From assembly GCA_903857795.1 (NCBI GenBank), contig CAIOGM010000156.1, positions 1-51,516 of the forward strand: DNA of 51,516 bases, written 5' to 3'. Below the pieces are notes generated by a model. The model saw only the letters and a program-made list of their open reading frames with translations. It was not told the origin of the DNA and made no database searches. This DNA comes from an uncultured Geobacter sp. GTDB lineage: Bacteria; Desulfobacterota; Desulfuromonadia; Geobacterales; CAIOGM01. Positions 4,724-37,261 of the stretch are shown here, piece by piece (positions within the stretch are counted from its first letter, which is position 1; each line of letters starts with the position of its first letter). A program made the translations under genes and the position numbers.

Positions 4724-4747
4724 TTCGCCACACTATTCCCGCTACGT

Positions 4748-9078: not shown

Positions 9079-9099
9079 TCACCCTTCACTCTTCACATT
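9079..9099. repeat. Heptamer repeat (TCACNNT)3
   Basis: TCACCCT, TCACTCT, TCACATT: three 7-bp units at the 3' end of gene A. The reverse complement is the same GTGAAGA-type unit as the chromosomal array at 24047-24081. Confidence 0.65.
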
Positions 9100-12656: not shown

Positions 12657-12769
12657 GGTCTCCTCCCGGCCCTTTTCGGCCCTGTTTTGCCCCCTCCTTT
12701 CCTGTGAGTTTTCCAAGGGATTAAAGAGGACAGTTGGTTCGCTTGATTATTTGCAAAGGAGTCGCGAAA

Positions 12770-13255
12770 ATGAGCAAAAACAGACATACCAGCGACAGTT
12801 TTCCCAAAGAAATCTCGTGGTATCCGCGATTCGCGTCAGACCGAGCCGACGAGCTGATCGCTGAACTTGACGCAGGGCAACAGTCGCGACTCCTTGGTGG
12901 ACTGAAAACCAGAACCTACGCAGAGTGGTTGACCTGGCTTGGAGATGCCAGGGGAGAGATCGCCACATATGACGGCTTAAGTCGCGCCCAGCGAACACGC
13001 CGGCTTCAACCGCGTCCCGATACCGAGATATTGCTACTGCACCACGCTTGCATCTTTGTAGAGCTCTGGCGTGCTCGACTGGATCGGCAATATTGTCATC
13101 TGCCCCCGTACGGTCCGCCACTTGAGTCCCATGAAAATCACCGGTCAATGATGGTGAACATAATGACGGCTTTTGACCGTTACGATCCTCGGGACCTATG
13201 GCCGTTTGATTCCCCGGAAGATGCCGGCTGGTTCCCATTTTCCGACTGTCCATAA
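12770..13255 (+). CDS. Plus-strand prophage protein of unknown function (moron candidate)
   Basis: 161 residues from the ATG at 12770 (ribosome site AAAGGAG). It is rich in Trp, Tyr and Arg, with FPKEISWYPRFASDRADELI near the start, a helical LHHACIFVELWRARLDRQYC, and an ending DLWPFDSPEDAGWFPFSDCP. There is no membrane segment or known motif. It sits between ner and the repressor on the repressor strand, across the path of the early transcript. Genes placed like this in temperate phages are often lysogenic-conversion or exclusion factors; that is inference. Confidence 0.6.
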   Translation: MSKNRHTSDSFPKEISWYPRFASDRADELIAELDAGQQSRLLGGLKTRTYAEWLTWLGDARGEIATYDGLSRAQRTRRLQPRPDTEILLLHHACIFVELWRARLDRQYCHLPPYGPPLESHENHRSMMVNIMTAFDRYDPRDLWPFDSPEDAGWFPFSDCP

Positions 13256-13355
13256 CTGTCTCCTTTTTGATCCGTTACCCCCTCCTTTCCACAGGTTTTT
13301 CCACAGGGTAAAGGGGGCAAAGTTTTTACCGCTGAATGTTTGTTTCGATGGAAGG

Positions 13356-13384
13356 AATATAGCGTAGAAAAATACGATTTGCAA
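13356..13384 (-). promoter_or_regulatory. Candidate early promoter (Pe)
   Basis: On the minus strand TTGCAA (13379-13384) and TATATT (13356-13361) are separated by exactly 17 bases, a good sigma70 layout, pointing toward ner and A. It is bracketed by two AGAAAAATACG direct repeats, a likely repressor site. Confidence 0.6.
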
Positions 13385-13396
13385 CAGAAAAATACG
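13366..13396. promoter_or_regulatory. Tandem 11-bp direct repeats, probable repressor operators
   Basis: AGAAAAATACG occurs at 13366-13376 and 13386-13396, 20 bp apart (about two helical turns). One copy lies in the spacer and the other just upstream of the -35 of the candidate early promoter. This suits cooperative binding by the adjacent repressor. Confidence 0.6.
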
Positions 13397-13420
13397 TGCA
13401 GGAGTCATGCTATGTTAATA

Positions 13421-13449
13421 TTCTACGATAACGTACAAAACACTATAAA
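13421..13449 (+). promoter_or_regulatory. Possible repressor promoter
   Basis: TTCTAC, 17 bases, then TATAAA, about 65 bases before the repressor ATG. The -35 is weak. The region is much more AT-rich than the rest of the phage. Confidence 0.35.
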
Positions 13450-13513
13450 AATCAGATATTTATATAACTCCGGCGCAGATTCGTCACGTCGGAGTTTACG
13501 CAGGAGTTAGAAT

Positions 13514-13918
13514 ATGAACTCCGGCCTGTTCACCCACCGCCTAAAATCCGTGATGGTTGGCCAGTCGAATCTATCGTTCGCAGAAAAATGCGGATTATCA
13601 GAAGGCACTCTTCGTAGTTATTTGAAGGGCAAGACGTCGCCCCCACTCGACACTCTTGTGATAATAGCAAAGGCAGGCAACGTAGATCTTGCTTGGTTAG
13701 CAACGGGCGAAGGGGAGATGAGGCGGGGGGAAGTGGGGACGAGTGCCGGACAAGTGCTTGAATCTGCGGCAGGTCGCATGGTCCAGACGCAACAGTGCAC
13801 CCCCATCCGGCCGGAGATCGCCGAACTGGTGGAGCTCCTGGACAACTACGCCAACAAGACCCTACTGGAGGATCTAAAAAGCAAACTGCTGAACATCAAA
13901 AAGGTAATGGAAGGGTAG
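13514..13918 (+). CDS. CI/c-type prophage repressor (XRE helix-turn-helix)
   Basis: 134 residues. The N-terminal FTHRLKSVMVGQSNLSFAEK followed by CGLSEGTLRSYLKGKTSPPL is the helix-turn-helix of phage CI-type repressors, with the family continuation AKAGNVDLAWLATGEGEM. A Gly/Gln-rich linker and a C-terminal helix (ELVELLDNYANKTLLEDLKS) for oligomerisation follow. There is no S24 peptidase domain, so RecA-driven self-cleavage is not expected. Next to the phage end and divergent from the early operon, it should keep the lysogen silent. Confidence 0.8.
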   Translation: MNSGLFTHRLKSVMVGQSNLSFAEKCGLSEGTLRSYLKGKTSPPLDTLVIIAKAGNVDLAWLATGEGEMRRGEVGTSAGQVLESAAGRMVQTQQCTPIRPEIAELVELLDNYANKTLLEDLKSKLLNIKKVMEG

Positions 13919-14168
13919 AGCCTGGGTGTGGTATAAGTGGCCAGTCAGGGGCTTCAGAGAGGGTGTAATCGCAGATCGAACTACTTCCAAATGTCGTGCT
14001 TCAAAACTTCAACTGCCAAATGTCGCCCTAAATTTCTGGTATTTAGGTGGCACCGGAAAAAATTTCAAAATACCTCATAACCTCCTTAAACCACGATCAA
14101 ATCCCACCGAACAGCGCCCAATCCCACCCATTCCCGTACTTCCAAGTCTCTAGCTTCATCACACTTCA
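13919..14168. mobile_element. Left end of the Mu-like prophage with repeated end motifs
   Basis: 250 bases without a gene between the repressor and a truncated chromosomal gene. CCAAATGTCG recurs at 13987 and 14016, and AATCCCACC at 14100 and 14120; these are candidate transposase-binding sites. Mu-type ends finish in CA read outward, and CA dinucleotides occur at 14157, 14160, 14162 and 14167. The exact junction cannot be fixed without the other end. Confidence 0.6.
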
Positions 14169-15184
14169 TGACCGGTGAATCCTATGACCGAATCCCTTGC
14201 AATCCCAATTTGGGCGACCATGCCGCTCAAATTGCCGGTTATACCGTCGCCGAGTACCACAATTGCCCGGTAAAGATGGCGGCTGCTCATCTGGCAGCCT
14301 ATGAGACCTACCGTCATGATTTTATCGGCCTGGGACCGGGACATGCCGGGGTGGCTGAAGCTCTTGGTTCGAAATTGGGATTTCCCGAGAATGGAACGCC
14401 TTTTGTGGAGGAGTTTGCCTTGGCGAATACAACCGATCTGGCGGCCTTCCCCATCCCCGATCCCCTGAAGGCCGGAAGATTTCCGCTCTTTCTGGATGCT
14501 CTGGATCTGGTGACGGAGAAAGTTGGTCACGAAGTTCCCATAGGGTTCGTCATTGGAGGTCCCTTGTCCGCCGCCTACAGCCTCAGGGGAGCCGAGGCGC
14601 TCATGAAAGACTTGTACCTTCGGCCGGAGTTCGTTCATGAACTTCTGGATCTCTGCGTCAGGAGCACGCTTCCCTTTCTTAAGGAGGTGGCCAAGCGGGG
14701 CGCAGGGATCGTCATCGTAGATCCGGTTTCGTCGGGGAGTCTCATCAGCCCGGCGCTATTCCGGAAATTCTCGCTGCCGTACCTGAAGCAGCTGATCGCC
14801 GGCATCCGCGAATTTACCCGGCCGCCGGTCCTCCATATCTGCGGCGACACGAAAAAGATCCTCGCTGACATGGCCGAAACCGGGGCCGGGGGGTTGAGTC
14901 TGGACAACGCCATCGACCTGACCGAGGCCAAACGTCAGGTCGGTTCGCAGCTGCTGCTGATCGGCAACGTCAACCCAGCGGAATCCATGTATCGCGGGAC
15001 AGCGGAAACGGTGCGGCTCGACGTCAAGAGCTGCCTGAAAAAGGGGCATGATTCCCCCAAGGGGTTCATGCTGGCCCTGGGATGCGAACTCCCCATCAAG
15101 ACGCCGCCGGAAAATGTTCACGCCCTGATGGCCGCGGCGCGCAGCTACGGCAGATATCCCTACTCTCCAGAACTGTTTAACTGA
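14168..15184 (+). pseudogene. MtaA/CmuA-type corrinoid methyltransferase, 5' end lost to prophage
   Basis: 338 readable codons of the uroporphyrinogen-decarboxylase-fold methyltransferase family. The zinc ligands are present: H223xC225 (LHICG) and C306 (LGCELP). MTGESYDRIP aligns with residues 11-20 of the paralogue at 24099 (LTGQPYDRIP), so only about ten codons are missing. The missing codons should lie beyond the far prophage end. No ribosome site precedes the first ATG, so expression is doubtful, although the fold is nearly complete. Family members move methyl groups between a corrinoid protein and a thiol or other acceptor. Confidence 0.8.
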
Positions 15185-19628: not shown

Positions 19629-20698
19629 GTTAAACTTCGTTTACTCCTCTCCAGCGGTTTGCCGCCTATGGCCGGGGAGAGGCCATCGACCGGCTCCCCT
19701 GTGTGCCGATCATCGGCAACGGTTCGGCGCGACTCATCGGCGCCAGGGTCTCGGACTTCCGCGGCAACGGTCCGCTCATCGCCCGGGCCCAGATCGCCGC
19801 CTACCGCTCCTTCGGCTATGACGTGATCCGGGTCTTTACCGACCTCTACCAGATGGCCGAGGCCATGGGGGCAACGGTCCACTATCCCGGGGACGAGACC
19901 GCCTACCTGGATTCGCCGGCCATCACCATGGTGGACGAGATCGGGCGGCTCACGCCGTTGAATCCCCTTGCCGACGGCAACCTTCCTGCCCACCTGGAGG
20001 CGATGCGGCGGGTGGTGGATGCCGTGGGGAGCGAGGTACCGGTTACCGGGGCGGTCACCTGCCCCTTCACCACCGCCTCGTTCCTCATCGGGGCCGAGAC
20101 CTTGGTCCGGCTGACCCTCAAAAATCCGGAAGCGGTGCACCGGCTCTGCGAGGTAGCCCTGGAGGCGGCCCTTCGCTACTGTGAGGCGATTATCGCTACC
20201 GGGGCAACTCCCAGCCTCACCGATCCCATGTCGTCCTCCACCGTCATCAGCCCGCGGCTCTTCCGGGAGTTCTCGCTCCCCTACCTTGCGCGGCTCATCG
20301 ACTATCTCCACCGACGGGGAAAGAGCGTCACCCTTCACATCTGCGGCAAGAGCGCCAAAATCTGGGAGCCGATGGTGGAGGCCGGAGCGGAGTGCCTCAG
20401 CATCGACAACGAGGCGAGTCTGACCGGGGCGAAGCTGACCGTGGGCCACCGGGCCCGGCTCATGGGGAATGTACATCCGTCGGAGATCATGCTCCAGGGG
20501 ACGCCGGAGCAGGTCCGGCGGGCCGTGTTCGCCGGCGTCGCCGAGGCGTGGGATTCACCCGGAGGGTACATCGTCGCCTCCGGGTGCAGCCTCCCCACGG
20601 AGACCCCTTTTGCCAACATCCGGGCCATGATGGACGCCGTCACCGAGATCGGCTGGCCGGTGGATCCGGAAAAACTGCAGGCATCTTTACAGGGATAA
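19625..20698 (+). pseudogene. MtaA/CmuA-type methyltransferase with TAA at codon 3
   Basis: The natural start by family alignment is the ATG at 19625, giving M-S-stop-TSFTPLQRFAAYGRGEAIDR, where TPLQRFAAYGRGEAIDRLPC corresponds to the normal N-terminus. The TAA at 19631 blocks it. The frame is then open to 20698, and the next start is the GTG at 19703 (331 residues, 26 fewer). Zinc ligands are HICG (H212xC214 counted from the GTG) and a later Cys in SGCSLP. First structural gene of the operon. It may be a true nonsense mutation, use of the GTG, or a base-call error. Confidence 0.7.
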
Positions 20699-20788
20699 AC
20701 AGGAAAAACAGGATGAACAGGATGGGCAGGATTACGGCAAAAACGACGTCTAATTTTTCCTCCTGATCATCCTGTATATCCCTGTTAA
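20695..20788. repeat. Inverted pair of 9-bp repeat arrays
   Basis: Four 9-mers ending ACAGG/GCAGG (20695-20730: ATAAACAGG, AAAAACAGG, ATGAACAGG, ATGGGCAGG) face three complementary 9-mers (20762-20788: CCTGATCAT, CCTGTATAT, CCCTGTTAA). RNA from either strand could fold into a long imperfect hairpin between two methyltransferase genes. Confidence 0.7.
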
Positions 20789-20807
20789 TTATTGATAGGA
20801 GGTTTAT

Positions 20808-21830
20808 ATGAGTCTCAGTCCCAAGGAACGTCTGCTCCGGGTCCTCAATCACCAGGGGGTCGACCGGCCGCCGGTCATCTGCACCGGCGGGATGATGAAC
20901 GCCGCCATCGTGGAGGTGATGAACCGGAGCGGCAATCTTCTCCCCGCAGCCCACCACGAGGGGGGTCTCATGGCGGCCCTGGCCGGCGATATCCACCAGG
21001 AGACCGGCTTCGAGAACATCGGCGTCCCTTTCTGCATGACCGTGGAGGCCGAGGTCCTGGGGAGCGAGATCAACTTCGGTACCCTGGCCTGCGAACCGAA
21101 GATCGAACGGGAGCTCTTTTCATCCGCCTCCCAGGTGGTCTACCGGCAGATCCCCGAGATGCTCAAGAGCGGCCGGATCGGCGAGGTGATCCAGGCCGGG
21201 TGGCGTGTGGCGGCCCAGCACCCCGACACCCCGCTCATCGGCAACCTGACCGGTCCGATCAGCACCGCCGCCTCCATCATCGATCCGGTCACCTTCCTGA
21301 AGGAGCTGCGCAAGGAGCCGGAAAACTCCCACCGGGTGCTGGAGTACGTGAGCGACCTCCTCATCGCCTATGCCGGGGAACTGATCAACCACGGCGTCAC
21401 CCTGATCTCCATCGGCGACCCCACCGCCACCGGCGAGATCCTGGGGCCGAAGATGTTTGAGGAGTATGCGGTCCGCTACCTCAACCGGGTCATCGACGGC
21501 ATCCACGGGTTCGGCGCTCCGGTGATCGTCCATATCTGCGGCAAGCTCCAGTCGGTGAAGCACTCCCTGCCGGCGCTTCGCTCCGATGCCATCAGCACCG
21601 ATGCCCTGGTGAACCTGAAGCTTCTCAAGGAGGAGTTCCCGTCTCTCATCACCATGGGGAATGTCAGCACCTTCATGCTGGAGCGGGGCGAGGCGGAGAA
21701 AGTGGCGCGTCACACCCAGGGGCTCATCAGGGACGGCATCAACATCATCTCTCCGGCCTGCGGACTCAGCACCGCGTCCAGCCTGGAGACTATCCGCGCC
21801 ATGACCGACAGCGTGAAGGGGACCCCGTGA
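20808..21830 (+). CDS. MtaA/CmuA-type corrinoid methyltransferase
   Basis: 340 residues, intact, with an AGGAGG ribosome site. A (beta/alpha)8 uroporphyrinogen-decarboxylase fold is indicated by the start MSLSPKERLLRVLNHQGVDR then PPV, and by GNLTGPISTAASIIDP. Zinc ligands are H242xC244 (VHICGK) and a Cys in SPACGLS near residue 313. It is the most divergent of the four copies. The stop overlaps the GTG of the RACE gene by four bases, so both are made together. It likely transfers a methyl group to or from a corrinoid protein; the substrate is unknown. Confidence 0.85.
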   Translation: MSLSPKERLLRVLNHQGVDRPPVICTGGMMNAAIVEVMNRSGNLLPAAHHEGGLMAALAGDIHQETGFENIGVPFCMTVEAEVLGSEINFGTLACEPKIERELFSSASQVVYRQIPEMLKSGRIGEVIQAGWRVAAQHPDTPLIGNLTGPISTAASIIDPVTFLKELRKEPENSHRVLEYVSDLLIAYAGELINHGVTLISIGDPTATGEILGPKMFEEYAVRYLNRVIDGIHGFGAPVIVHICGKLQSVKHSLPALRSDAISTDALVNLKLLKEEFPSLITMGNVSTFMLERGEAEKVARHTQGLIRDGINIISPACGLSTASSLETIRAMTDSVKGTP

Positions 21831-23494
21831 GCCGCGTAACTTTCCGGCCTGATCAGATCGAGATCCAGGTGCCACCCGGGAGCACGCTCCTGGCCGCGGC
21901 CCGGCTGGCCGGCCTGCTCATCGAGGCCCCCTGCAACGGCGCCGGCCACTGCGGCAAGTGCGCCGTCCAGGTGGCGCCGGAGTATTTCGATCGCCTGACC
22001 ATCCCGCCAGACTCCCGTCTCCCGCCGGAGCGGGAGGAGGCTGGCTGGCTCCTCGCCTGCCACGCCCTGGTGCAGGGGGATGTCACGGTCACGATCCCGG
22101 TGCGACGCGAGTGCGGTCTCCAGATCGTCACCTCGGGAGAGAAGCGGCGAAGCGTCGCGCTCTCCCCCTGGATCAGCAAACGGTTCATGCCGGAGAGCTG
22201 CCAGACCTATGTGTATGCCGGGGAACGTCTCCTGACGGTGGAACGGGGGGACAGTGCGTCGGACATCTGCGGGGTCGTCGTGGATATCGGCACCACCACC
22301 CTCGTCGTCGCCCTGGTAGATCTGGTGAGCGGTAAGGAGCTGGCCTCGGATTCGGCCCTCAACCCCCAGAGCCTCCATGCCCAGGATGTCCTCTCGCGAA
22401 TCAGGTTCTGCGCCGAACCGGGGGGGCTGGCCCGGCTGCAGGGCGAGCTGATAGCGGAGCTGAACCGGCTCATTGCCGGGCTTGCCGCCACCGCCGGGGT
22501 CAGCCGCTCGTGGATCTACGAGGCGGTCTTCAGCGGCAACAGCTGCATGCTCCATCTGGCCGCCGGAGTCGATCCCGCACCGTTGGGCAAATATCCGTTT
22601 ACCCCGACCCTTACCGGGGGGGAGCACCTTGAGGCGGCCGCCCTGGGGCTGGCCATTGCGGAGAGGGGGGTCGTCTATCTGCCGCCGGTCATCTCCGCCT
22701 ACGTAGGGGCCGACATCACCGCCGGCATCCTGGCGGCGGAGCTGACAGAACTCTCCGGAACCACCCTGTTCATCGATATCGGCACCAACGGCGAGATGAT
22801 CCTGGCCCGCGACGGACACCTGGCAGCCACCTCCACCGCCGCCGGACCGGCCTTCGAGGGGATGAACATCTCTCACGGGATGCGGGCCGCCGCCGGGGCC
22901 ATCGAAGGGGTCCGGATCACCGCCGAGGGGGAGGTGGAGCTCGACGTCATCGGTGGGGTCGAGGCCACCGGGATCTGTGGCAGCGGGCTCATGGACCTGG
23001 TGGCGGAGCTGGTCAGCTGCGGAGTCGTCGGCGCCAGCGGCAAATTCACCCCGGCGGAGCGGCTCCCCGAGCCGCTGGGGCGCCGGATCGAAAAAGTAAA
23101 CGGCACGACCCTGTTCCGCATTTCCGAAAGAATCTCGTTGAGTCAGAAGGACCTGCGCCAGGTGCAGCTGGCCAAGGGGGCCATCCGGGCCGGGATCGAC
23201 ATCCTCCTGGACGAGCGGGGGGTAACCGCGGCCGGTGTCGATCGGGTCTACATCGCCGGCTCCTTCGGCTTCCACCTCCGGGAGGAGAGCCTGCTGATCC
23301 TGGGGCTCCTGCCACCCGAGTGCCGGGGGAAGGTCTCCTTCCTTGGTAACACCTCCCAGTCGGGGGGAGAGCTGCTCCTCCTCAGCCACCGGCTCCGGGT
23401 GGAGCTGGAACTGCTGACCCCCCTTGTGGCCCGGGTGGAGCTGACCGGTCGGAGCGACTTCGACCGGATATTCATGAAAGCCATGGGGTTCTGA
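21827..23494 (+). CDS. Reductive activator of corrinoid enzymes (RACE), ferredoxin plus ASKHA ATPase
   Basis: 555 residues. The N-terminus is a plant-type 2Fe-2S ferredoxin with C36, C42, C45 and C78 (CNGAGHCGKC...LLAC). A linker leads to an ASKHA ATPase domain with DIGTTT (153-158), DIGTNGEM and GICGSGLMDL. This is the DUF4445/RACE family (RamA/AcsV-like function), which uses ATP to push an electron onto inactive cob(II)alamin and restore cob(I)alamin. The GTG start is coupled to the methyltransferase stop. It is strong evidence that the operon works with a corrinoid, although no corrinoid protein is encoded here. Confidence 0.88.
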   Translation: MSRVTFRPDQIEIQVPPGSTLLAAARLAGLLIEAPCNGAGHCGKCAVQVAPEYFDRLTIPPDSRLPPEREEAGWLLACHALVQGDVTVTIPVRRECGLQIVTSGEKRRSVALSPWISKRFMPESCQTYVYAGERLLTVERGDSASDICGVVVDIGTTTLVVALVDLVSGKELASDSALNPQSLHAQDVLSRIRFCAEPGGLARLQGELIAELNRLIAGLAATAGVSRSWIYEAVFSGNSCMLHLAAGVDPAPLGKYPFTPTLTGGEHLEAAALGLAIAERGVVYLPPVISAYVGADITAGILAAELTELSGTTLFIDIGTNGEMILARDGHLAATSTAAGPAFEGMNISHGMRAAAGAIEGVRITAEGEVELDVIGGVEATGICGSGLMDLVAELVSCGVVGASGKFTPAERLPEPLGRRIEKVNGTTLFRISERISLSQKDLRQVQLAKGAIRAGIDILLDERGVTAAGVDRVYIAGSFGFHLREESLLILGLLPPECRGKVSFLGNTSQSGGELLLLSHRLRVELELLTPLVARVELTGRSDFDRIFMKAMGF

Positions 23495-23511
23495 GCAGGA
23501 GAGGAGGATCT

Positions 23512-24057
23512 ATGCCGCAAACCGCCGTCAGCATCCGCCGTTACGCCAACTTCTTCCGGAAGAGCGGCGCCACCAGGGTTCTGGACTATGGCACCGGGAC
23601 CATGCGCAACGCCCTCTATCTGGCCGGGCAGGGGTTCACGGTCTACGCCGCCGACCTGCCGGAACAGGTGGCGGCGCTCATCCCCTGCCCGGCGGTCCAG
23701 CGGCTGGCCGGACTCATGGATACGGAGCAGCTTGCTATCTGCCGGCTGAATGTGGACCTGGTGGTCTCCACCTACGTCTTCAACATCATCCCCGGGTATG
23801 AGGAGCAGCGCCGCTATGTGGCCAACGCGGTGCGCAACCTCCGTCCCGGCGGCTACCTCCTCATGGAGGTCCGCTGTCCCCGGGAGGGGAGCGTCTGCGG
23901 TGCCGGCTGTTCCCACTACTTCAAGTGCCCCGGTTGCGCCAAGACCTACACCCATACGGAGCTGGACCAGCTGCTGCGCCCCTTTGGGCTCCGGCGGATC
24001 AGCCACTACTATCGCCGCCGGGCGGTGGCCGCCATCTATAAAAAAAGTGAAGAGTGA
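23512..24057 (+). CDS. Small SAM-dependent methyltransferase with Cys cluster
   Basis: 181 residues, ribosome site GGAGAGGAGG. SAM-binding motif I is VLDYGTGTMRNALYLAGQGF (about 23-42), with acidic motif II at YAADLP. Between strands 5 and 6 there are five cysteines (C122, C129, C133, C139, C142; CPREGSVCGAGC then KCPGC) that look like a zinc knuckle. The rest is a plain class I fold. Placed between RACE and a methyltransferase, it may methylate the cofactor, a protein partner or the substrate. The family is not identified beyond class I. Confidence 0.7.
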   Translation: MPQTAVSIRRYANFFRKSGATRVLDYGTGTMRNALYLAGQGFTVYAADLPEQVAALIPCPAVQRLAGLMDTEQLAICRLNVDLVVSTYVFNIIPGYEEQRRYVANAVRNLRPGGYLLMEVRCPREGSVCGAGCSHYFKCPGCAKTYTHTELDQLLRPFGLRRISHYYRRRAVAAIYKKSEE

Positions 24058-24081
24058 AGAGTGAAAGGTGAATTGTGAAAA
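24047..24081. repeat. Heptamer array (GTGAAGA)5
   Basis: GTGAAGA, GTGAAGA, GTGAAAG, GTGAATT, GTGAAAA in perfect 7-bp register, spanning the stop of the SAM methyltransferase and the space before the next gene. The same unit occurs inverted in the prophage at 9079-9099. Confidence 0.75.
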
Positions 24082-24098
24082 AAACAGAGTGGGAAACC

Positions 24099-25151
24099 AT
24101 GACATCGCGGGAACGGACTCTGGCGGCTCTCACCGGTCAACCCTATGACCGGATTCCGGTCAATCTGCTCATGAGCGACTACGCGGCCCGGGTCATCGGG
24201 GTCACCGTGGGGGAGTACCAGCAGTCGGCCAGGCTCATGGCCCGGGGGCAGATCGCCGCGTGGCAGCGGTACGGCATGGACCTGGTGAACACCGGGCCGG
24301 GGCTCACCGGCATTGCCGAGGCCATGGGAAGCCGGCTGACCTTTACCGACAATACCGCCCATGTTGCCGAGTATGCCATCAAGGAGCCGGGGGAGCTGGA
24401 ACGGATGCGGGTTCCTGATCCGGAACGGGACGGTCGGCTACCGCTCTTCCTGGAGGCGGCCGGCATCGTGCTCAGGGAGATCGGCGACCAGGTTCCGGTA
24501 TCACTGACCACATCGGCCCCTTTCACCGTGGCATGCAATCTCCGCGGGACCGAGTTCTTTCTTCGCGATCTCCGGAAAAATCCCGAGTTCGTACACCGTC
24601 TGCTACGGTTGGTCACGGAGAGCGTCATCGCTTTCAGCCGCGCCGCCATCGGCGTGGGGGTGCGGATCGGCCTGGCGGAGCCCACCGCCTCGGGCACCCT
24701 CATCAGCCCCAAGCTCTTCCGGGAGTTTGCCCTGCCGTACCTGAAGGAGGTGGTCACCACGGTGGGAAGCCTGGCCGGGACGAACCCATCCCTCCATATC
24801 TGCGGCAACACCGCCCGGATCTGGGAGGATATGGCGGATACGGGCGCCTCGGTCCTGAGTCTTGATGACGAGGTGGATCTGGCTGAGGCGAGGAGTGCGG
24901 TGGGGGAGCGGGTGGCGCTCCTGGGGAACATCCGCCCCACCAGCGTCATGGTCCTGGGGACGACGGAAGATGTCCGGGCCAATGTTCGGGAGTGTCTGGC
25001 AAAGGGAGCCGGGAATCCGAAAGGGTTCATCCTCGGCATGGGGTGCGCCCTCCCCATCAACACCCCGCCGGAGAACATTCACGCCCTGATGGCTGCCGCC
25101 CGGGAGTACGGCCGCTGGCCCATCGATATGCAAAAGTTGGCGGTAGCCTAA
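24099..25151 (+). CDS. MtaA/CmuA-type corrinoid methyltransferase
   Basis: 350 residues from the ATG at 24099 (MTSRERTLAALTGQPYDRIP); a GTG at 24075 inside the repeat array would add eight residues. Zinc ligands are H233xC235 (LHICGNT) and C316 (GMGCALP). It is closest to the prophage-truncated copy at 14168: both share the VLHICG or SLHICG region, the LPIxTPPEN(I/V)HALMAAAR C-terminus and overall length. It is the last gene of the operon, before a strong convergent terminator. Confidence 0.85.
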   Translation: MTSRERTLAALTGQPYDRIPVNLLMSDYAARVIGVTVGEYQQSARLMARGQIAAWQRYGMDLVNTGPGLTGIAEAMGSRLTFTDNTAHVAEYAIKEPGELERMRVPDPERDGRLPLFLEAAGIVLREIGDQVPVSLTTSAPFTVACNLRGTEFFLRDLRKNPEFVHRLLRLVTESVIAFSRAAIGVGVRIGLAEPTASGTLISPKLFREFALPYLKEVVTTVGSLAGTNPSLHICGNTARIWEDMADTGASVLSLDDEVDLAEARSAVGERVALLGNIRPTSVMVLGTTEDVRANVRECLAKGAGNPKGFILGMGCALPINTPPENIHALMAAAREYGRWPIDMQKLAVA

Positions 25152-29329: not shown

Positions 29330-29674
29330 ATGGACATTCGAGTGGCGGTAGCCAGCAGTGACGGAGTTACCGTCAACCTGCACTTCGGCAGGGCTGAGCG
29401 GTTCCGGATCTACCGGGTTACCGATGATGCGGCTGAATTCCTGGAGGAGCGGGCGAACGCTCCCGCCTGCTCCGGGCAACAGCATGACGATGCCCTGCTG
29501 GAGCGGAGCGCCGATCTGATCAGCGACTGTAAGGCGGTGATCGCGGCCCAGATCGGCGGCGGCGCCATCGACGTTCTGCTCTTTCGCCGAATCCGGGCCT
29601 TTCCGCTGACCGGCCCCATCGATGAGGCTCTCAGCACGCTCCGGCGCTCCAAGCGTTTTCTCTATTTGAAATAA
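29330..29674 (+). CDS. NifX/NafY-type iron-molybdenum-cofactor-binding family protein
   Basis: 114 residues of the dinitrogenase FeMo-co family (PF02579). VAVASSDGVTVNLHFGRAER opens it, with the typical FGRAxRF turn; CKAVIAAQIGGGAIDVLL matches the family core. Members carry or chaperone NifB-co/FeMo-co-type Fe-S clusters (NifX, NafY, C-terminus of NifB). As first gene of the operon it suggests that the NifDK-like enzyme downstream holds a complex Fe-S cofactor. No NifB or NifEN is present in the window. Confidence 0.8.
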   Translation: MDIRVAVASSDGVTVNLHFGRAERFRIYRVTDDAAEFLEERANAPACSGQQHDDALLERSADLISDCKAVIAAQIGGGAIDVLLFRRIRAFPLTGPIDEALSTLRRSKRFLYLK

Positions 29675-29686
29675 ACGGGACTTTCC

Positions 29687-30502
29687 ATGCATGAAATCGC
29701 CATCAACAACGTCTCCTACGCCTACGGCAGCCACGAAGTGCTGCGGGATGTCACCTTCACCGCCGAGGCCGGGGAGTTCATCTGTCTCCTGGGGCCATCG
29801 GGATGCGGCAAGAGCACCCTGCTGCGGCTACTGGCGGGGCTCGACCTGCCGACATCCGGCGGCATCACTCTGGACAGCACTCCCATCACCGGTCCGGGGC
29901 TGGATCGGGGGGTGGTCTTCCAAGATTACTCTCTCTTCCCCTGGATGACCACCGGACAGAACATCGTCCTGGCCCTGGAGCAGGCTTTTCCGGGTAAGAA
30001 GAAGAGCGAGTACCGGGAGATCGCCCAGGGGTATTTGGAGATGGTGGGGCTCGGCTCCGCAGTGGACAAGCTCCCGGGACAGCTCTCCGGCGGAATGCGC
30101 CAGCGGGTCGCCATCGCCCGGGCCTTCTCCATCAATGCGCCGGTGCTCCTCATGGACGAGCCGTTCGGGGCGCTGGACGCCATCACTAGAGCTCGGCTCC
30201 AGGACCTGCTGCTCACCCTCTGGCAGCAGAATGCGGGAGAGCGCAAGACGGTCTTTTTCGTCACCCACGACGTGGAGGAGGCGATCCTCCTGGCCAGCCG
30301 GGTCGTGGTGCTGGGGCTCAACCCCGGCGCCATCCGCGGTGTCTTTACCGTGGAGCTCCCCCGGCCCCGGGTCCGTCAGGAGCTCTATCTCAAGGAGCCG
30401 TTCCTCGTGCTGCGGGACCGGCTGGTGACCCTGCTCCATGAAAACATCCTCTCCGAGCTGGAGGCCGGGGAGACCGTCGCTTCGGTGGGAGAGGGGATAT
30501 GA
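29687..30502 (+). CDS. ABC transporter ATPase (SsuB/TauB/NrtD type)
   Basis: 271 residues. Walker A is GPSGCGKST (K42), followed by the Q-loop [10 protein letters not shown], signature [15 protein letters not shown], Walker [13 protein letters not shown] and the switch His in VTHDVEEA. The [12 protein letters not shown] form is typical of nitrate/sulfonate/taurine importers. Gene start is 12 bases after the NifX-like stop; the stop overlaps the next ATG (ATGA). It energises the permease at 33466. Confidence 0.88.
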
Positions 30503-31269
30503 TCCGACTGCTCGTCACCACCGTTCTCATGGCCACGCTGCTCCTCACCGGCGCGGCGCCGGGTTCCGCTGACCAGGAGAGACTCTTTCGTCTGGGGTAT
30601 CTGGACAACCTGGGGAGCGCTCTCTGCCGGATCGCACAACTTAAAGGACATTTCGCCCAGGAGGGACTGAAGGTGGCACTGGTCCGGTTCGGCGATAGCC
30701 AAGGCGGCCTGGCGGCGCTGGAACAGGGGAACATCGACGCCGGGGCGTTCCTCGTGGGGGAGGGACTTCGGGCCATAGCCCAAGGTAGGGGGTTCCGGTT
30801 CGTGGCCGGCGGGGGGCTCCTCACGGCCACCGGGCCGCTGGCCGAACTGGACAGCAGGGTGCAGCAGCAGCTGGATCTCTCCGGAACCGTGGTCTTCATC
30901 CCTGCAACCGGGCCGGCAACGGAGAAAGAGACCGTCACCCGGCTGACGGCGGCCCTGATCCGCGCCTATGGGAGCAGCCGGCAACAGCCGGATATCCTGC
31001 CCCTCGGACAGAGCGGAGCGGATCAGCCCATCACCCGGTTCGACCCCTCGCCGGAGTATTACCGCCTGGAACGGCTCTGGAAACGGCTGGCTCTTCAGTC
31101 TCCAGCCATGCCGGCCGACTTCCTGGCGAACCATGTGTATGAAGAGATCTACTGCGACGCCCTGGACCGTCTGCTGGAGGACTCACCGGATGACAAGCTG
31201 TTACAAGAGCTCTCCGCCCGGGCCGTCTGCGTTCCCGACTGCTGTCCCAAGAACAAGAACCCGAAGTAA
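30499..31269 (+). CDS. Shortened NMT1-type substrate-binding-like protein
   Basis: 256 residues with a signal peptide (LLVTTVLMATLLLTGAAPGSA). LGYLDNLGSALCRIAQLKGH followed by FAQEGLKVALVRFGDS matches the start of SsuA/NMT1 binding proteins, and SPEYYRLERLWKRLALQSPA resembles the end. Compared with its two neighbours (342 and 346 residues) about 90 residues of the central lobe are missing. The tail carries CVPDCCPK. It may be a truncated binding protein or have taken on a different periplasmic role. Confidence 0.65.
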   Translation: MIRLLVTTVLMATLLLTGAAPGSADQERLFRLGYLDNLGSALCRIAQLKGHFAQEGLKVALVRFGDSQGGLAALEQGNIDAGAFLVGEGLRAIAQGRGFRFVAGGGLLTATGPLAELDSRVQQQLDLSGTVVFIPATGPATEKETVTRLTAALIRAYGSSRQQPDILPLGQSGADQPITRFDPSPEYYRLERLWKRLALQSPAMPADFLANHVYEEIYCDALDRLLEDSPDDKLLQELSARAVCVPDCCPKNKNPK

Positions 31270-31293: not shown

Positions 31294-32322
31294 ATGCAAC
31301 GAATCGTAACGTTTGTCCTGTTGTTGTCGCTTTTGGCCACTGTGGCCCTAGCCGCCGACCTGCCGAAACTGCGGGTCGGCTATATCCCCGAACCGGCCCA
31401 CGGCCTCTACTTCGTGGCCCGGGACAAGGGGTATTTCAAGGAGGAAGGGGTCGACGTGGAGCTCTTCCAGTTCGGCAGCGCTGCCGAGGGGATGGCGGCG
31501 CTCAAGGCGGAGAAGCTGGATGTGGGGACCTTCGGCACCACGGCGCCGCTCCTCTTCATCTCCAAGGGGAGCGACTTCACCTTCATCGGCGGGATCATGA
31601 TCGGCGGCCAGGCGATCATCACCCGCCCCGAGCGGCTGGCAGAACTCTCCGGTCATGACCTCAAGGTCTACAAGGGGAAGAAGATCGGCCTGGTCAAACT
31701 CTCCACCGGCGACGTGGTCTTCAAGGGGGCGCTGAAGAGGGCCGGCATCGACTACAAGAAGGAGGTCACTTTCGTGGAGTTCGGCTCGGCCGCGGCGGTG
31801 GTGGAAGCGGTGAAGAAGGGGGCGGTGGACGCCGGCCTGGTCTGGCCACCTCACTTCTCCCTGGCGGAGAAGAATCAGGGGCTCAAGGTGGCCCACTACA
31901 TCGAGGAGTTCTACCCCAAGTACACCTGCTGCCGGATCGTGGCCCCCACGGCCAAGGTGAACGCCGACAAGGAGACCTACCGCCGCTTCCTGGCGGCCCT
32001 GATCCGGGCCTACAAGTTCTACAAGACTAACGAAAACGAGACGGTGGCGATCTATACCAAGTCCCTGAAGATCGACGAGGAGATCATCCGCAACGAGACC
32101 TACGTGAAAAAGGTGGCGGAGTCCAATCCTGATCCGCTCAGGAAGGGGATCCTGGAGTTCTGGCAGCATATTCTCGACGCCGGCTACGTCCCCAACGATT
32201 ACCCCATCGACAAGCATATCAACATCGACATCTACAAGCAGGCGCTGGATTCGGTCATCAAGAAGAGTCCCAAGGACAAGACCTACCAGGAGATGCTGGC
32301 CTTCTACAAGAAGAACAACTGA
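31294..32322 (+). CDS. ABC substrate-binding protein (NMT1/SsuA type)
   Basis: 342 residues. Signal peptide (IVTFVLLLSLLATVALA), then LRVGYIPEPAHGLYFVARDK and KLDVGTFGTTAPLLFISKGS, the ligand-cleft motifs of sulfonate/nitrate/thiamine-precursor binding proteins. An adjacent Cys pair, C212-C213 (YTCCRIVAP), is conserved with the next gene. The ligand cannot be read from the sequence. Its 56% or so likeness by eye to the next protein suggests tandem duplication. Confidence 0.82.
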   Translation: MQRIVTFVLLLSLLATVALAADLPKLRVGYIPEPAHGLYFVARDKGYFKEEGVDVELFQFGSAAEGMAALKAEKLDVGTFGTTAPLLFISKGSDFTFIGGIMIGGQAIITRPERLAELSGHDLKVYKGKKIGLVKLSTGDVVFKGALKRAGIDYKKEVTFVEFGSAAAVVEAVKKGAVDAGLVWPPHFSLAEKNQGLKVAHYIEEFYPKYTCCRIVAPTAKVNADKETYRRFLAALIRAYKFYKTNENETVAIYTKSLKIDEEIIRNETYVKKVAESNPDPLRKGILEFWQHILDAGYVPNDYPIDKHINIDIYKQALDSVIKKSPKDKTYQEMLAFYKKNN

Positions 32323-32335
32323 CGAGGAGACGACC

Positions 32336-33376
32336 ATGAAACGACTATGCGCACTGCTGCTGATGACGCTCTCCCTGGTGGGCTCCGCTCACGCCTCTGA
32401 ACCGGCGAAACTGAAGGCCGGCTATCTCCCCACTTCCGGGCACCTGCTCTATTTCGTGGCCAAGGAGAAAGGGTTCTTCCAGCAGGAAGGGCTGGACGTG
32501 GAGCTGGTCCGCTTCACCAATTCCGGGGAGGGGCTCACCGCCGTCAAGGCGGGGAAGCTGGACGTAGGCTCCTTCGGCACCTCGGCGCCCCTGGCCTTCA
32601 TTGCCAAGGGGGCTGATTTCACTATCTTCGGCGGCCAGATGGGAGAAGGGCACGGCCTCATCGCCAAGCCGGAGAAGGCTGAAAGGTTCAAGGATCTCAA
32701 GAACTTTCGGGGGTCTACCATCGGTGCGGTCCGCCTGGCCACCGGCGACGTGGTCTTTCGGGCCGCACTCCACGATGCGGGGGTCGATTGGAAAAAAGAG
32801 ATGACCATCAAGGAGTTCGATTCGCCGGCCGCAGTCATGGAAGCGGTGAAGAAGGGGACTCTGGATGCCGGTCTGGTCTGGGTTCCCTACTTCACCTTGG
32901 CCGAGAAGCAGGGGCTCGTGGTGGTCAAATATTCGGGAGACGTCATCAAGGGGCATACCTGTTGCCGTCAGGTGGCGCTTACCTCCACCACACGGGATCG
33001 CCGGGCCGACCTGGAGCATTTCCTGACGGCGCTCTTGAAAGCGTACCAGTATTACCTCACCGACAAAAATGGCACCGTGGACGTGGTGGCCAAGTATGTC
33101 CAGATCGACAAGGCCGACCTGCTCAAGGACATCTATGGCGGGCACCTGCTGGTCAGTCCCGATCCCCACAAGCAGTCAGTACTCCAGTTCTGGGAGTTCA
33201 TGAAGAAGGCCGACTATATCACCTCCACCGATTCCATCGACGGTCGGATCAATACCAGGCTCTATGCCAGCGCCCTGGCATCCCTGGAGAAGCGGGAACC
33301 CAAGGAGAAGCTCTGGAGGAACCTGGAGAAAGAGTTCAAGAGCGGTGACGGCGAACTGCATATCAAGGCGCATTAA
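32336..33376 (+). CDS. ABC substrate-binding protein (NMT1/SsuA type), paralogue
   Basis: 346 residues. Signal (LCALLLMTLSLVGSAHA), then LKAGYLPTSGHLLYFVAKEK, GSFGTSAPLAFIAKGADFTI and the Cys pair C209-C210 (HTCCRQVAL). It is 13 bases downstream of the previous binding protein with its own GAGGAG site. With the shortened copy it makes three binding-type proteins for one ATPase and one permease. Confidence 0.82.
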   Translation: MKRLCALLLMTLSLVGSAHASEPAKLKAGYLPTSGHLLYFVAKEKGFFQQEGLDVELVRFTNSGEGLTAVKAGKLDVGSFGTSAPLAFIAKGADFTIFGGQMGEGHGLIAKPEKAERFKDLKNFRGSTIGAVRLATGDVVFRAALHDAGVDWKKEMTIKEFDSPAAVMEAVKKGTLDAGLVWVPYFTLAEKQGLVVVKYSGDVIKGHTCCRQVALTSTTRDRRADLEHFLTALLKAYQYYLTDKNGTVDVVAKYVQIDKADLLKDIYGGHLLVSPDPHKQSVLQFWEFMKKADYITSTDSIDGRINTRLYASALASLEKREPKEKLWRNLEKEFKSGDGELHIKAH

Positions 33377-33465: not shown

Positions 33466-34371
33466 ATGAAGAACTATCTCCTCAATCTCCAGACACTTCT
33501 GTTCGTTACCCTGCTGGCGGCGCTGCTCTGGCCGTCGGCAGGGGGGACTCCCCGCTATCTTCTCGTCCTGGTCATCATCGTGGAGTTGACAGCGCTGTTG
33601 CGGAGTCGTCTGGCGCAGAGCGCTGCGACCCGCCAGGGGGCTCGTGATGTGGCGAGCATCGTCTTCCTGGTACTCCTTTTCTGGCAGCTGGCCACGGCCC
33701 GCTTCGGACTCCTGGACAAGATGCTCTTTCCCAACCCCGAGTCGGTGTTGAGGATGTTCGTGACGGAACTGCCGGATATGCTCAAGGGGCTGATCAACTC
33801 GCTCATCCTGCTGGCGAGCGGCTTTTCCCTGGCGCTGGGAACCGCGCTGCCGCTGGGGCTGCTGGTGGGGTGGCGGTCGCGGCTCTTTCACGCCGTCAAC
33901 CCCTTCACCAAGGTGATGGGGCCGATCCCCCCCATCGTCTATATTCCCTACGCCATCGCACTCCTTCCCAGTTTCCGGAGCGCCTCCATCTTCATCATCT
34001 TCATCGGGGCCTTCTGGCCGATCTTCATCAATACCGTCAACGGGGTCTTCGACATCCCCAAGGGGCTCCTGGACTCGGCCCGGGTGCTCAACCTGAAGGA
34101 GCGGACCCTGCTCTGGCGGGTCATCCTCCCGGGCGCCATGCCCTCCATCTGCACCGGCTCCACCCTGGGGCTCCTCTTCTCCTTCGTGCTCCTGGCGGCG
34201 GCCGAGCTGATCGGCGCCAATTCGGGTATCGGCTGGTACGTCAAGAATTTCGCCGACTTCGCCGACTACCAGCGGGTCATCGTGGGGATCATCTTCATCG
34301 GCATCGTGGTGACGACGCTAACCTGGGGAACCGAACGGGTGGAAAAGAGGCTGTTGCGGTGGCGCAATTAA
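33466..34371 (+). CDS. ABC transporter permease (SsuC/TauC type)
   Basis: 301 residues with about six or seven hydrophobic segments. The conserved EAA-type loop is recognisable at SARVLNLKERTLLWRVILPG (DSARVLN...LPGAMPSI). The PIPPIVYIPYAIALLPSF segment is typical of the sulfonate/nitrate permease family. There is an extra N-terminal pair of segments of about 60 residues compared with SsuC. It pairs with the ATPase at 29687. Confidence 0.85.
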   Translation: MKNYLLNLQTLLFVTLLAALLWPSAGGTPRYLLVLVIIVELTALLRSRLAQSAATRQGARDVASIVFLVLLFWQLATARFGLLDKMLFPNPESVLRMFVTELPDMLKGLINSLILLASGFSLALGTALPLGLLVGWRSRLFHAVNPFTKVMGPIPPIVYIPYAIALLPSFRSASIFIIFIGAFWPIFINTVNGVFDIPKGLLDSARVLNLKERTLLWRVILPGAMPSICTGSTLGLLFSFVLLAAAELIGANSGIGWYVKNFADFADYQRVIVGIIFIGIVVTTLTWGTERVEKRLLRWRN

Positions 34372-34388: not shown

Positions 34389-35921
34389 ATGAGTTACATC
34401 GATCTGAAATCGGCCCCCAAGCGCGAAGAGCGGCTGAAGGCATGCATCGCCCACGGCGGGAGCATCTGCGACCTGGGGGGGAAGGGGAAGAAGTCGTGTC
34501 TCGTGGACGACGGGGAGCGGGGTTTTACCCAAGGCTCCATCTGCCTGCTCCTGCCGGCCCTGGCCATGCTCAACACCCTACCCGACAACGTGGTCCTGAT
34601 GCACAGCGCCATCGGCTGCGGCACCTGCACCCACTCCCAGAACGCCAATGTCCGCTTCGGCGGCAACGTCCGGTGGGGAGCGGTGAAGGACGGGATCTGG
34701 CTCTCCACGGCGCTCAACGAGACCGACGTCATCGGCGGCGGTGAAGAGAAGCTGGAACAGGCGATCATCGAGGCGGATGAACGGTATAAGCCGTTCAGCA
34801 TCTCCGTGGTCTCCGGCTGCGTCCCCGGGATCATCGGCGACGACATCGACAACGTGGTGAAGCAGCTTCAGCCCCGGGTGAAGGCGAAACTCCTGCCGGT
34901 CCACTGTGAGGGGTTCAAGACCAAGATCTGGGCCACAGCCTACGATGCGGTCTATCACTCCATCGGCCGGACGCTGCTGGAGAGCAATGGGGCGCAAGAG
35001 ACGGTAACAGGGGAGGGCGAACCGGGCCTCACCCCCTACCAGGGGCTGGAGCGGCTCCCCCGGACGGTGAACCTGATGAACGTCTCGTCCATGGGGCGGG
35101 TGGATGAGCTGGAGCTGACGCGGCTCCTGACTTCCCTGGGGCTGGAGGTCAACGTCTTCCCGGTCTTCGCCCACCCGGCGGGGATGGTGACGGCGACCCA
35201 GGCGGCCCTGTCGGTGAGCACCTGCCCGACCCACGACGACTACTTCCTCACCTATCTGGAAGAGCGCTTCGGGGTGCCGTACCTCCTGAAGCATATGCCC
35301 ATCGGCATCGAGAACAGTGGGCTCTGGCTGCGGGATGTCGCCCGTCATTTTGGCCAGGAGGCGCAGGCGGAGGCGCTCATCCGCCATGAGGAGGAGCAAC
35401 TGCAGGCGGCCCTGGCCGAGTTTCGCCCCCTCTTTGCCGGCAAGACGGTCTTTGTCAGCGCCGGCGAGTTCCGCGCCCTGGCCACGGCCCGTCTCCTGGA
35501 GGAGCTGGGGTTCAGGGTCACCGGCATCCGCTCCTTCCACCACGACGAGTTCGCCCAAGGGGAGTACGACAAGCTGGCGGCCAGCGCCCAGGAGGATTAC
35601 CCCATCGATATCGCCAATGTCCAGCCTTTCGAGGAGGCGAACCTTCTGAAACGGATCAAGCCGGATCTCTTCCTCGGTCACGCCAACGGCAACGCCACCG
35701 CGGCCAAGCTGGGGATAGCGACCCATGTCATCTACAACACCGGCCTGGCCTATATCGGCTACCGGGGAGCCTACGACCTGGCCCGGCGGCTGGCCCGGCA
35801 ACTGAAGAACCCCAGTTACAACCGGCGGCTGGCGGAGAACCTCCGGCTCCCCTACTCTGATACGTGGTATGAAGCACCCCCTTTCAGTTACATCAACAGC
35901 CGTGGAGGCGCTACCCAATGA
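34389..35921 (+). CDS. NifD-like nitrogenase component 1 homologue
   Basis: 510 residues from the ATG at 34389 (AGGAGAAACT site). P-cluster ligands are present: C52 (GSICLLL), C77 (AIGCGTC) and C144 (SGCVPGIIGDDI). C279 (VSTCPTHDDYF) aligns with the FeMo-co ligand Cys275 of NifD. The position of His442 is Ile456 (LAYIGYRGA), and the N2-reduction residues around Gln191/His195 are replaced. Extra cysteines C19, C27, C37 and C80 lie at the N-terminus. It is therefore a nitrogenase-like reductase, not a nitrogenase. The stop overlaps the next ATG. Known relatives include methylthio-alkane reductase, CfbD and DPOR/COR subunits; the subgroup is not certain. Confidence 0.85.
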   Translation: MSYIDLKSAPKREERLKACIAHGGSICDLGGKGKKSCLVDDGERGFTQGSICLLLPALAMLNTLPDNVVLMHSAIGCGTCTHSQNANVRFGGNVRWGAVKDGIWLSTALNETDVIGGGEEKLEQAIIEADERYKPFSISVVSGCVPGIIGDDIDNVVKQLQPRVKAKLLPVHCEGFKTKIWATAYDAVYHSIGRTLLESNGAQETVTGEGEPGLTPYQGLERLPRTVNLMNVSSMGRVDELELTRLLTSLGLEVNVFPVFAHPAGMVTATQAALSVSTCPTHDDYFLTYLEERFGVPYLLKHMPIGIENSGLWLRDVARHFGQEAQAEALIRHEEEQLQAALAEFRPLFAGKTVFVSAGEFRALATARLLEELGFRVTGIRSFHHDEFAQGEYDKLAASAQEDYPIDIANVQPFEEANLLKRIKPDLFLGHANGNATAAKLGIATHVIYNTGLAYIGYRGAYDLARRLARQLKNPSYNRRLAENLRLPYSDTWYEAPPFSYINSRGGATQ

Positions 35922-37261
35922 GTGAGCATTTCATCGAACGGTCCCGTTATCTCTGCGCTCTGGGAGGTGCGGCGGCCACGGTCACCGCCATCCCTGGGGC
36001 CATCCCGATCCTCCACTCCGCATCCGGCTGTGCCGGCAACTTTGCCTGGACTCAGAACGGCGGCAGCGGCCTCCAGGTTGGTGGTTACTGCGGGGCGCTG
36101 ACCACCCCCAGCTCCAACATCCAGGAGCATGAGGTAGTTTTCGGCGGCGACGAGCGGCTCCGGGAGCAGGTAGCTTCCACCCTGAAGGTCATGGATGGGG
36201 AACTCTTCGTCGTTCTCACCGGCTGTGTCCCCGAGATAATAGGGGACGACATCAAGAGCGTGGTGGCCGGGTTCAGCTCTCAAGGGGCGGCCATCATCGG
36301 CGCCGAGACCGGCGGTTTCCGGGGAAACTCCTACTGGGGGTACGACCTGGTGCTTCAGGCCCTGTTCCGGGATTTCGTGGAGAAGGCGCCGGAGAAGGAG
36401 CAGCTGAAGGTCAACCTCTGGGGGATCGCTCCCTACGCCGACCCGTTCTGGCGGGGGAACCTGGAAGGGGTGCGCCATCTCCTGGAACGGCTCGGTCTGG
36501 CGGTGAACAGCTTCTTCACCACCGGCGACTCACTGGACGGTATCCGGCTGGCCGGCAGCGCGGCACTAAACATCGTGGTATCGGAACTCTACGGTCTGGG
36601 CGCCGCCACTCTGGCCCAGGAGCGGCACGGCATCCCGTTCCTGAGCCACCCCCTGCCAATAGGCCCCACCGCCAGCGAGGCGTTTCTCCTGGCCGTCGCC
36701 GGGAAGCTCGGCCTGAGTGAGGAGCGCGTGAACGCGGTCATCGCGCGGGAAAAGGAGGAGTACTTCAAGCTGCTGGAACCGCTGACCGACTGCTGGAACG
36801 ACCTGGACTTGCAGCGGTACGCCGTGGTGGTGGGGGACGCCAACTACGCCGGGGCGTTGACCCGGTTCCTGGCCGATGACCTGGGGTGGCTCCCGGAGTT
36901 GACCGTCTGCACCGACCCGCTTGGGGAGGATGAGCGGCGACGGCTGACCGAGGGGCTGGCCAACCTGGCTTCGGGATACGAGGCGAACCTGCGGTTCGAG
37001 ACCGACGCCAGCCAGGTGATCCATCACCTCAGGCAGAAGTGGCCGGCCGCCGACGGCTCTACCTACCACAATGCCTTCAGTCCGGCCTTCGTGGTGGGGA
37101 GTTCCCTGGAACGGGAGCTGGCCCAGAGCCTGGGCGCCGGGCACCTCTCCGTCAGTTTTCCCGTTGCCAACCGGGCGATCATCGACCGTGGCTATACCGG
37201 GTTCCGGGGGGGCCTGCGTCTCACTGAAGACCTGATCAGCGCCATCATAGTTGGCAGATGA
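35918..37261 (+). CDS. NifK-like nitrogenase component 1 homologue
   Basis: 447 residues. It carries the three P-cluster-type cysteines C13 (YLCALGG), C38 (ASGCAGNF) and C103 (TGCVPEIIGDDI). It lacks the roughly 60-residue N-terminal extension of Mo-nitrogenase NifK and starts almost directly at the first ligand, as in Vnf/Anf and nitrogenase-like proteins. Translation is coupled to the NifD-like gene (ATGA). The two should form a heterotetramer with P-cluster-type centres. Confidence 0.85.
   Translation: MSEHFIERSRYLCALGGAAATVTAIPGAIPILHSASGCAGNFAWTQNGGSGLQVGGYCGALTTPSSNIQEHEVVFGGDERLREQVASTLKVMDGELFVVLTGCVPEIIGDDIKSVVAGFSSQGAAIIGAETGGFRGNSYWGYDLVLQALFRDFVEKAPEKEQLKVNLWGIAPYADPFWRGNLEGVRHLLERLGLAVNSFFTTGDSLDGIRLAGSAALNIVVSELYGLGAATLAQERHGIPFLSHPLPIGPTASEAFLLAVAGKLGLSEERVNAVIAREKEEYFKLLEPLTDCWNDLDLQRYAVVVGDANYAGALTRFLADDLGWLPELTVCTDPLGEDERRRLTEGLANLASGYEANLRFETDASQVIHHLRQKWPAADGSTYHNAFSPAFVVGSSLERELAQSLGAGHLSVSFPVANRAIIDRGYTGFRGGLRLTEDLISAIIVGR

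Follow-up and report, generated by a model that had tools for sequence, protein, structure and literature searches.

We found that a divergent nitrogenase-like gene pair from an uncultured Geobacter sp. probably encodes the catalytic component of an [Fe8S9C] reductase of the methylthio-alkane reductase (MAR) type that would act on C-S (perhaps C-Se) bonds. The pair lies at positions 34,389 to 37,261 of contig CAIOGM010000156.1 (C156; assembly GCA_903857795.1), whose 51,516 nucleotides are hereafter called the window, and encodes P0001, a MarD/NifD-like protein (D subunit), and P0002, a MarK/NifK-like protein (K subunit). An initial annotation, made from the sequence alone, had proposed that the pair keeps the P-cluster cysteines and the cofactor cysteine of nitrogenase, lacks its cofactor histidine, and binds a cofactor of Fe-S type differently from the iron-molybdenum cofactor (FeMo-co), with a substrate other than N2. 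This last proposal is supported by the structure of MAR (PMC12552129), by the ligands and active-site changes of the pair and by its neighbourhood of sulfur genes.

The open reading frames (ORFs) of P0001 and P0002 are real, overlap by 4 bp, and both match the Oxidored_nitro family (Table 1). The top PDB matches were MarD (9d9u/9fmg, E 3e-63) for P0001, MarK (9d9u_C, E 2e-83) for P0002 and MarH (9fmg_D, E 2e-49) for P0003, the Fe-protein-like product of the H-like gene that follows the pair. An AlphaFold model of P0001 (mean pLDDT 82) found its best structural match in MarD (9fmg_A; TM 0.80/0.87, Z 37.1 over 460 residues), compared to Z scores of 30-31 against nitrogenases and NifEN, and the model of P0003 adopted the Fe-protein fold and was closest to MarH (9fmg_E; TM 0.86/0.90). 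Since MAR subunits are the top solved-structure matches for the D, K and H-like proteins and for the two modelled folds, we favour a MAR-type enzyme. Identity to MarHDK of Rhodospirillum rubrum is ~32% for D and 37-39% for K. Furthermore, P0001 stayed below the NCBIfam cut-offs of the nitrogenase models nifD (148 of 654 bits), VNFD (77 of 823) and ANFD (57 of 874), of nifE, its best NCBIfam model (167 of 505), and of CfbD (49 of 268), BchN (66 of 420) and BchB (85 of 490).

As recognized in the initial annotation, all six P-cluster ligands have counterparts in the pair. C52, C77 and C144 of P0001 aligned with MarD C66, C91 and C158, and were invariant in the clade of the pair (85 of 85 rows); C13, C38 and C103 of P0002 aligned with MarK C32, C56 and C121, and were kept in 114, 115 and 116 of 116 clade rows. 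Row counts include some genes more than once, and counts of distinct sequences are the fairer measure. C279, also correctly read as the cofactor cysteine, is equivalent to MarD C270 and NifD C275 and is invariant in the clade. Because a D-K pair with the same ligands occurs in at least six phyla, this ligand pattern is far beyond chance. By comparison, the isethionate reductase IsrBHDK shares with the window system its nitrogenase-like nature, an SsuABC-type importer and, on our reading, an organosulfur substrate, but IsrD has one of the three P-cluster cysteines and lacks the equivalents of Cys62, Cys154 and Cys275, all of which are present in P0001 (PMC11423573). The four additional N-terminal cysteines pointed out in the initial annotation (C19, C27, C37 and C80) are indeed present in P0001, but vary across the clade: at the exact columns they occur in 56, 60, 37 and 58 of 85 rows, respectively, and all four together in 16 rows, or 31 when one-residue shifts are allowed. 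Because of this variation in the alignment, a fixed extra Fe-S cluster formed by these residues is unlikely and was rejected as a conserved feature.

Cys275 and His442 are the two nitrogenase residues that bind FeMo-co. The residue of P0001 in the His442 column is Tyr449 (MAFFT); Ile456, which the initial annotation had wrongly placed there, pairs with NifD His451 in the PYHG motif (HMMER, MAFFT) and was rejected as a counterpart of His442. In MAR, the structure of which was published in 2025, the [Fe8S9C] cluster is held by MarD Cys270 and by His429; this second ligand escaped earlier sequence work because it sits on another loop, loop I, which is longer (PMC12552129). The homologue of His429 in P0001 is His431, which is invariant in the 125 usable rows of the window clade. 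This histidine stands 11 residues from a conserved glycine in all 125 of these rows, as it does in each of the 13 Mar-type rows, and the window clade has one residue fewer than the Mar-type rows in the stretch that precedes the histidine. In the raw MAFFT alignment, His431 was paired with MarD Arg428, one residue off. This pairing was rejected after scoring all 17 possible gap positions over 58 x 11 distinct segments, with the best score obtained by dropping Arg428 and pairing the histidines (32.95 vs at most 31.76). Residue spacing and gap scoring therefore indicate that the homologous histidine is present and that the preceding arginine is absent, window D having Gly-His in place of the Arg-His found in 13 of 13 Mar-type rows. 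The initial annotation had itself named a properly aligned histidine at the ligand position as the observation that would speak against it. With His431 standing where MarD has His429, the strong form of the claim that no histidine ligand exists fails, and His431 is predicted from this alignment to be a cluster ligand.

The pocket around the cluster differs from those of both nitrogenase and MAR. NifD Gln191 and His195 are replaced by Trp181 and Tyr185 in P0001, in agreement with the initial annotation, which had described this area as altered. Of the MAR active-site set (Cys73, Gln74, His194, Trp195, Phe199 and His375), just two residues are retained, both of which face the cluster in MarD: Trp195, as Trp181 (Trp in 79 of 109 rows), and His375, as His384 (109 of 109). 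The other four have changed: Cys73 to Ala, Gln74 to Met, His194 to Ile and Phe199 to Tyr. Judged from these residues, the altered pocket (four replacements and no Arg428) argues for a substrate other than that of MAR.

In a D tree, obtained by a quick search and containing some long branches, Mar-type proteins formed a clade of 13 rows (SH-aLRT 99) and P0001 fell within a separate clade of 64 rows (SH-aLRT 96). Contig C80 of the genome from which the window derives (the home genome) carries true MarDK as well (80% and 71-75% identity to R. rubrum), and this MarD groups with R. rubrum MarD, outside the P0001 clade. The window pair is therefore not MarDK itself. Placement inside a known functional clade had been offered in the initial annotation as a second observation that would count against it; the pair lies outside the MarD clade. 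A third MarD copy on contig C80 (L125, 12093-15047) is apparently interrupted by inserted DNA that carries a transposase-like ORF (12578-14812). Extra copies related to the window genes were also observed in the home genome at L123, L126 and L171 (contigs C96, C149 and C91; D-K 87-89%, K 86%, H-like gene 82%), where they adjoin Rrf2-like and cysK-like genes.

The neighbourhood of MarHDK-like genes in group IV-A was noted by Kountz and Balskus, who reported that they adjoin type I mlp clusters (PMC10418091); this association is already known and is not a new observation here. The window clade probably corresponds to group IV-A, as judged by agreement with the published gene context. Our search of plasmid records for named group IV-A sequences returned one distant relative (32.6%, Chlorohelix) and otherwise NifD proteins only. 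A stretch with two or more Mlps and Ram/RACo in one direction, as in a type I mlp cluster, lies at 19703-25151 of the window, where three Mlp-like genes, RACo and one small methyltransferase share the same strand; the corrinoid protein expected of such a cluster was not found in the window.

The order of the window operon is NifX, SsuB, three SsuA-type binding proteins, SsuC, D, K and H-like; the NifX-like gene had already been identified in the initial annotation. The RACo/Ram activase and four methyltransferases of MtaA/CmuA type, all with a His-Cys-Cys zinc motif, are encoded upstream of this operon. In the 39 relatives whose D-K genes are flanked by 7 kb or more on both sides, the neighbours were SsuC (31), SsuA (27), RACo (24), Mlp (23), corrinoid protein (19), MarH (18), NifX (18), CysK (18) and MarB (15). 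Since RACo occurs only once in the 4.05-Mb home genome, its co-occurrence with D-K is not background, whereas genes for ATP-binding cassette (ABC) ATPases are common, and their presence nearby says little. Sulfate-assimilation genes and cysK recur near clade members. The genes after D-K in the sister-species locus L043 encode an Rrf2-type regulator, CysK, a NifB/MarB-like radical S-adenosylmethionine (SAM) protein and an intact MarH. In the home genome, counterparts of the last two are located together on contig C169, the MarH-type protein again being intact, and a corrinoid protein is encoded on contig C80. A neighbourhood of sulfur genes, with a NifB/MarB-type radical SAM protein and MarH nearby in relatives, is a further feature that the window pair has in common with MarHDK of R. 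rubrum.

The two full-length SsuA-type binding proteins carry a vicinal cysteine pair that is almost invariant in their cluster homologues (Table 1). Of the SsuA-family proteins encoded elsewhere in related genomes, about a dozen could be aligned, and just two of these have the pair. As a sequence feature, this Cys-Cys pair hints at a thiophilic ligand. SaoX was rejected as the identity of these proteins, the score reaching at most 82 of the 300 bits of the cut-off.

Table 1. Location of the nitrogenase-like genes and their neighbours in the window.
Feature	Coordinates	Strand	Evidence
MtaA/CmuA-family corrinoid methyltransferase (Mlp-like), His-Cys-Cys	14168..15184	+	TIGR01463 E 2e-56; motif
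MtaA/CmuA-family methyltransferase (Mlp-like), His-Cys-Cys	19703..20698	+	TIGR01463 E 2e-59; motif
MtaA/CmuA-family methyltransferase (Mlp-like), His-Cys-Cys	20808..21830	+	PRK06252 371.7 bits, cut-off 244; motif
Corrinoid-protein activase (RACo/Ram), sole match in home genome	21827..23494	+	PF14574 E 4e-67
Small SAM-type methyltransferase, C-terminal cysteines	23512..24057	+	weak TehB / CpaM / MduS matches
MtaA/CmuA-family methyltransferase (Mlp-like), His-Cys-Cys	24075..25151	+	TIGR01463 E 5e-61; motif
NifX/NafY-like cofactor carrier (Nitro_FeMo-Co domain)	29330..29674	+	PF02579 E 2e-20
ABC ATPase, SsuB-like	29687..30502	+	PF00005 E 7e-32
Short SsuA-like binding protein	30499..31269	+	weak NMT1 / SsuA_fam matches
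SsuA-like periplasmic binding protein, vicinal Cys212-Cys213	31294..32322	+	TIGR01728 E 4e-34; CC in 71/72 aligned cluster homologues
Second SsuA-like binding protein, vicinal Cys209-Cys210	32336..33376	+	TIGR01728 E 4e-30; CC in 60/60
ABC permease, SsuC-like	33466..34371	+	PF00528 E 7e-19
D subunit P0001, MarD/NifD-like catalytic subunit, 510 aa	34389..35921	+	PF00148 (Oxidored_nitro) E 2e-80
K subunit P0002, MarK/NifK-like, 447 aa	35918..37261	+	PF00148 (Oxidored_nitro) E 3e-67
Fe-protein-like protein P0003, 287 aa	37341..38204	+	PF00142 E 7e-43

Several further features of these loci were observed. The small methyltransferase with a Cys-rich tail (23512-24057) adjoins the H-like gene in other genomes. 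A 463-aa gene with weak similarity to QueG (epoxyqueuosine reductase) lies directly upstream of D in relatives (L043, 8613-10001; L045, 8514-9938) and is absent from the window. A type II hammerhead ribozyme above the Rfam cut-off was found at 4653-4730 (minus strand) of the window, in a region that also holds a Mu-like transposase ORF (9093-11576, minus strand) and other phage-like ORFs.

The least expected part of the locus is P0003 and its kin. Members of the Fe-protein family are seen as obligate electron donors driven by ATP. P0003 shares with NifH and MarH the fold and the equivalent of Cys97, but its P-loop reads GGGGVGVS, in which both K10 and K15 are absent (codons GGG and GTC), and a serine stands at Cys132. 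The members of its clade (22 sampled proteins, SH-aLRT 99) come mostly from the same taxonomic order; K15 was lost in 9 of the 22 proteins and one or both cluster cysteines in 9 of 22, whereas P-loop lysine and cluster cysteines are intact in all 35 rows on the opposite side of the tree. P0003 sits on a long branch, and its exact position inside the clade is therefore unsure. Across the 114 C-terminal codons that could be compared with the C91 copy, dN/dS was 0.18, which does not favour a decaying pseudogene as far as that part is concerned; the N-terminal half, where the P-loop lies, was beyond the reach of this comparison. Other genes of the clade (L160, L161, L169 and others) are often located beside cysK, Rrf2, sulfate transporters or a small methyltransferase. 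At L161 and L169, the relatives of P0003 are next to cysK, Rrf2 regulators, sulfate ABC transporters or a sulfite-reductase-like gene (names assigned by eye from sequence), and neither D nor K was found in the stretch examined there. A regulatory or chaperone role of P0003 in sulfur assimilation is our guess. As both lysines and Cys132 are missing, P0003 is not favoured as electron donor of the D-K pair, and the intact MarH-type protein encoded on C169 is the more likely donor.

We propose the following route for the window system. By analogy with the MAR structure, an 8Fe P-cluster would lie between D and K, held by the six cysteines, and D would contain an [Fe8S9C] cluster with neither Mo nor homocitrate, anchored by Cys279 and His431. 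The MarH-type Fe protein encoded on C169 beside the NifB/MarB-like radical SAM protein would supply electrons with ATP. The adjoining importer, which is SsuABC-like and of sulfonate type, may bring in a small compound, whose C-S, C-Se or other C-heteroatom bond would be reductively cut at the cluster. The freed methyl-S or methyl-Se group could then be taken up by the corrinoid methyltransferases, the corrinoid protein and the activase, and CysK would fix sulfide.

Several observations weigh against this interpretation. The loop of P0001 is one residue shorter than that of MarD and lacks Arg428, such that coordination by His431 is not proven, and the P0001 model is of low confidence at residues 36-51, 78-80 and 146-148, close to the P-cluster cysteines. 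Furthermore, 12 of the 39 well-flanked relatives lack a recognized SsuA and 15 lack a nearby RACo, a motif search of the window detected no gene for a corrinoid protein, none of the B12-binding matches of the genome fell on C156, and our literature search did not find biochemical data on any clade member.

Three other explanations of the pair were considered. It could encode a divergent nitrogenase in the group IV-A/Nfa sense, which would reduce N2 by means of a cofactor other than FeMo-co. Such N2 reduction has been claimed for Endomicrobium proavitum, an organism that has no nif-like genes outside group IV-A and was reported to incorporate 15N2 (PMC9147875, PMC11257099). The window clade and the group IV-A/NfaHDK systems of E. 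proavitum and Heliophilum (PMC9147875) share Mlp, Ram/RACo, sulfur genes and membership in group IV, are likely the same clade, and both adjoin type I mlp clusters (PMC10418091). Nevertheless, the residues of the window pair lend no support to N2 fixation: the P-cluster ligands and Cys275 are shared with NifDK of Mo-nitrogenase, but Gln191, His195 and His442 are all replaced, and the nifD and nifE scores are far from their cut-offs. The home genome also has its own NifDK-like and NifEN-like genes (contigs C45 and C147) and NifH (C26), and the neighbours of the pair are sulfur genes. N2 reduction by the pair is thus unlikely from its residues and context, and we consider the nitrogenase explanation very improbable.

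A NifEN-like maturation scaffold that passes [Fe8S9C] to the other MAR-like enzymes of the genome would account for the NifX-like carrier inside the operon, for nifE being the top NCBIfam model for D and for the presence of MarB and MarH near D-K in relatives. The low nifE score, the clearly closer fit of the D model to MarD than to NifEN (Z 37 vs 31) and the linkage of importer and methyltransferase genes to the pair across phyla, which fits a substrate-converting enzyme, make such a scaffold quite improbable. Slightly less so, yet still unlikely, is a reductase for a non-sulfur compound, such as a methylated metalloid or selenium compound, for which the Cys-Cys binding proteins would capture a thiophilic ligand. 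This possibility draws on the conservation of the vicinal cysteines in the clusters and their rarity in the remaining SsuA-family proteins of related genomes, and on the use of methyl-selenium compounds by type I mlp proteins (PMC10418091). On the other hand, the closest characterized relative is a C-S-cleaving enzyme, cysK recurs along with genes of sulfate assimilation, and the Cys pair could capture thiols or disulfides as well. We therefore retain a MAR-type reductase for C-S, perhaps C-Se, bonds as the probable function of the pair.

We also put forward, as a tentative and rather doubtful extension, that the pair may belong to a widespread clade of [Fe8S9C] reductases with a third mode of cluster anchoring, by a histidine on an unextended loop I without Arg428. 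Its substrate would be thiophilic and new for nitrogenase-like enzymes, captured outside the cell by the Cys-Cys pairs and subjected to corrinoid demethylation, and the Geobacterales relatives of Fe proteins, devoid of ATP hydrolysis and of the [4Fe-4S] cluster, would be regulatory or chaperone proteins.

The repeated loss of catalytic residues in the P0003-type clade, under purifying selection where measurable, is unexpected for the Fe-protein family. Furthermore, the residues and neighbourhood described here allow a direct test of whether group IV nitrogenase-like enzymes such as that of E. proavitum fix N2 or cleave C-S bonds. A clade with the cluster ligands of MAR, not those of nitrogenase, occurs in cultured hosts (Geomonas, Oryzomonas, Sporomusa, Pelosinus and Sporobacter), and its neighbourhood supplies a candidate substrate class.

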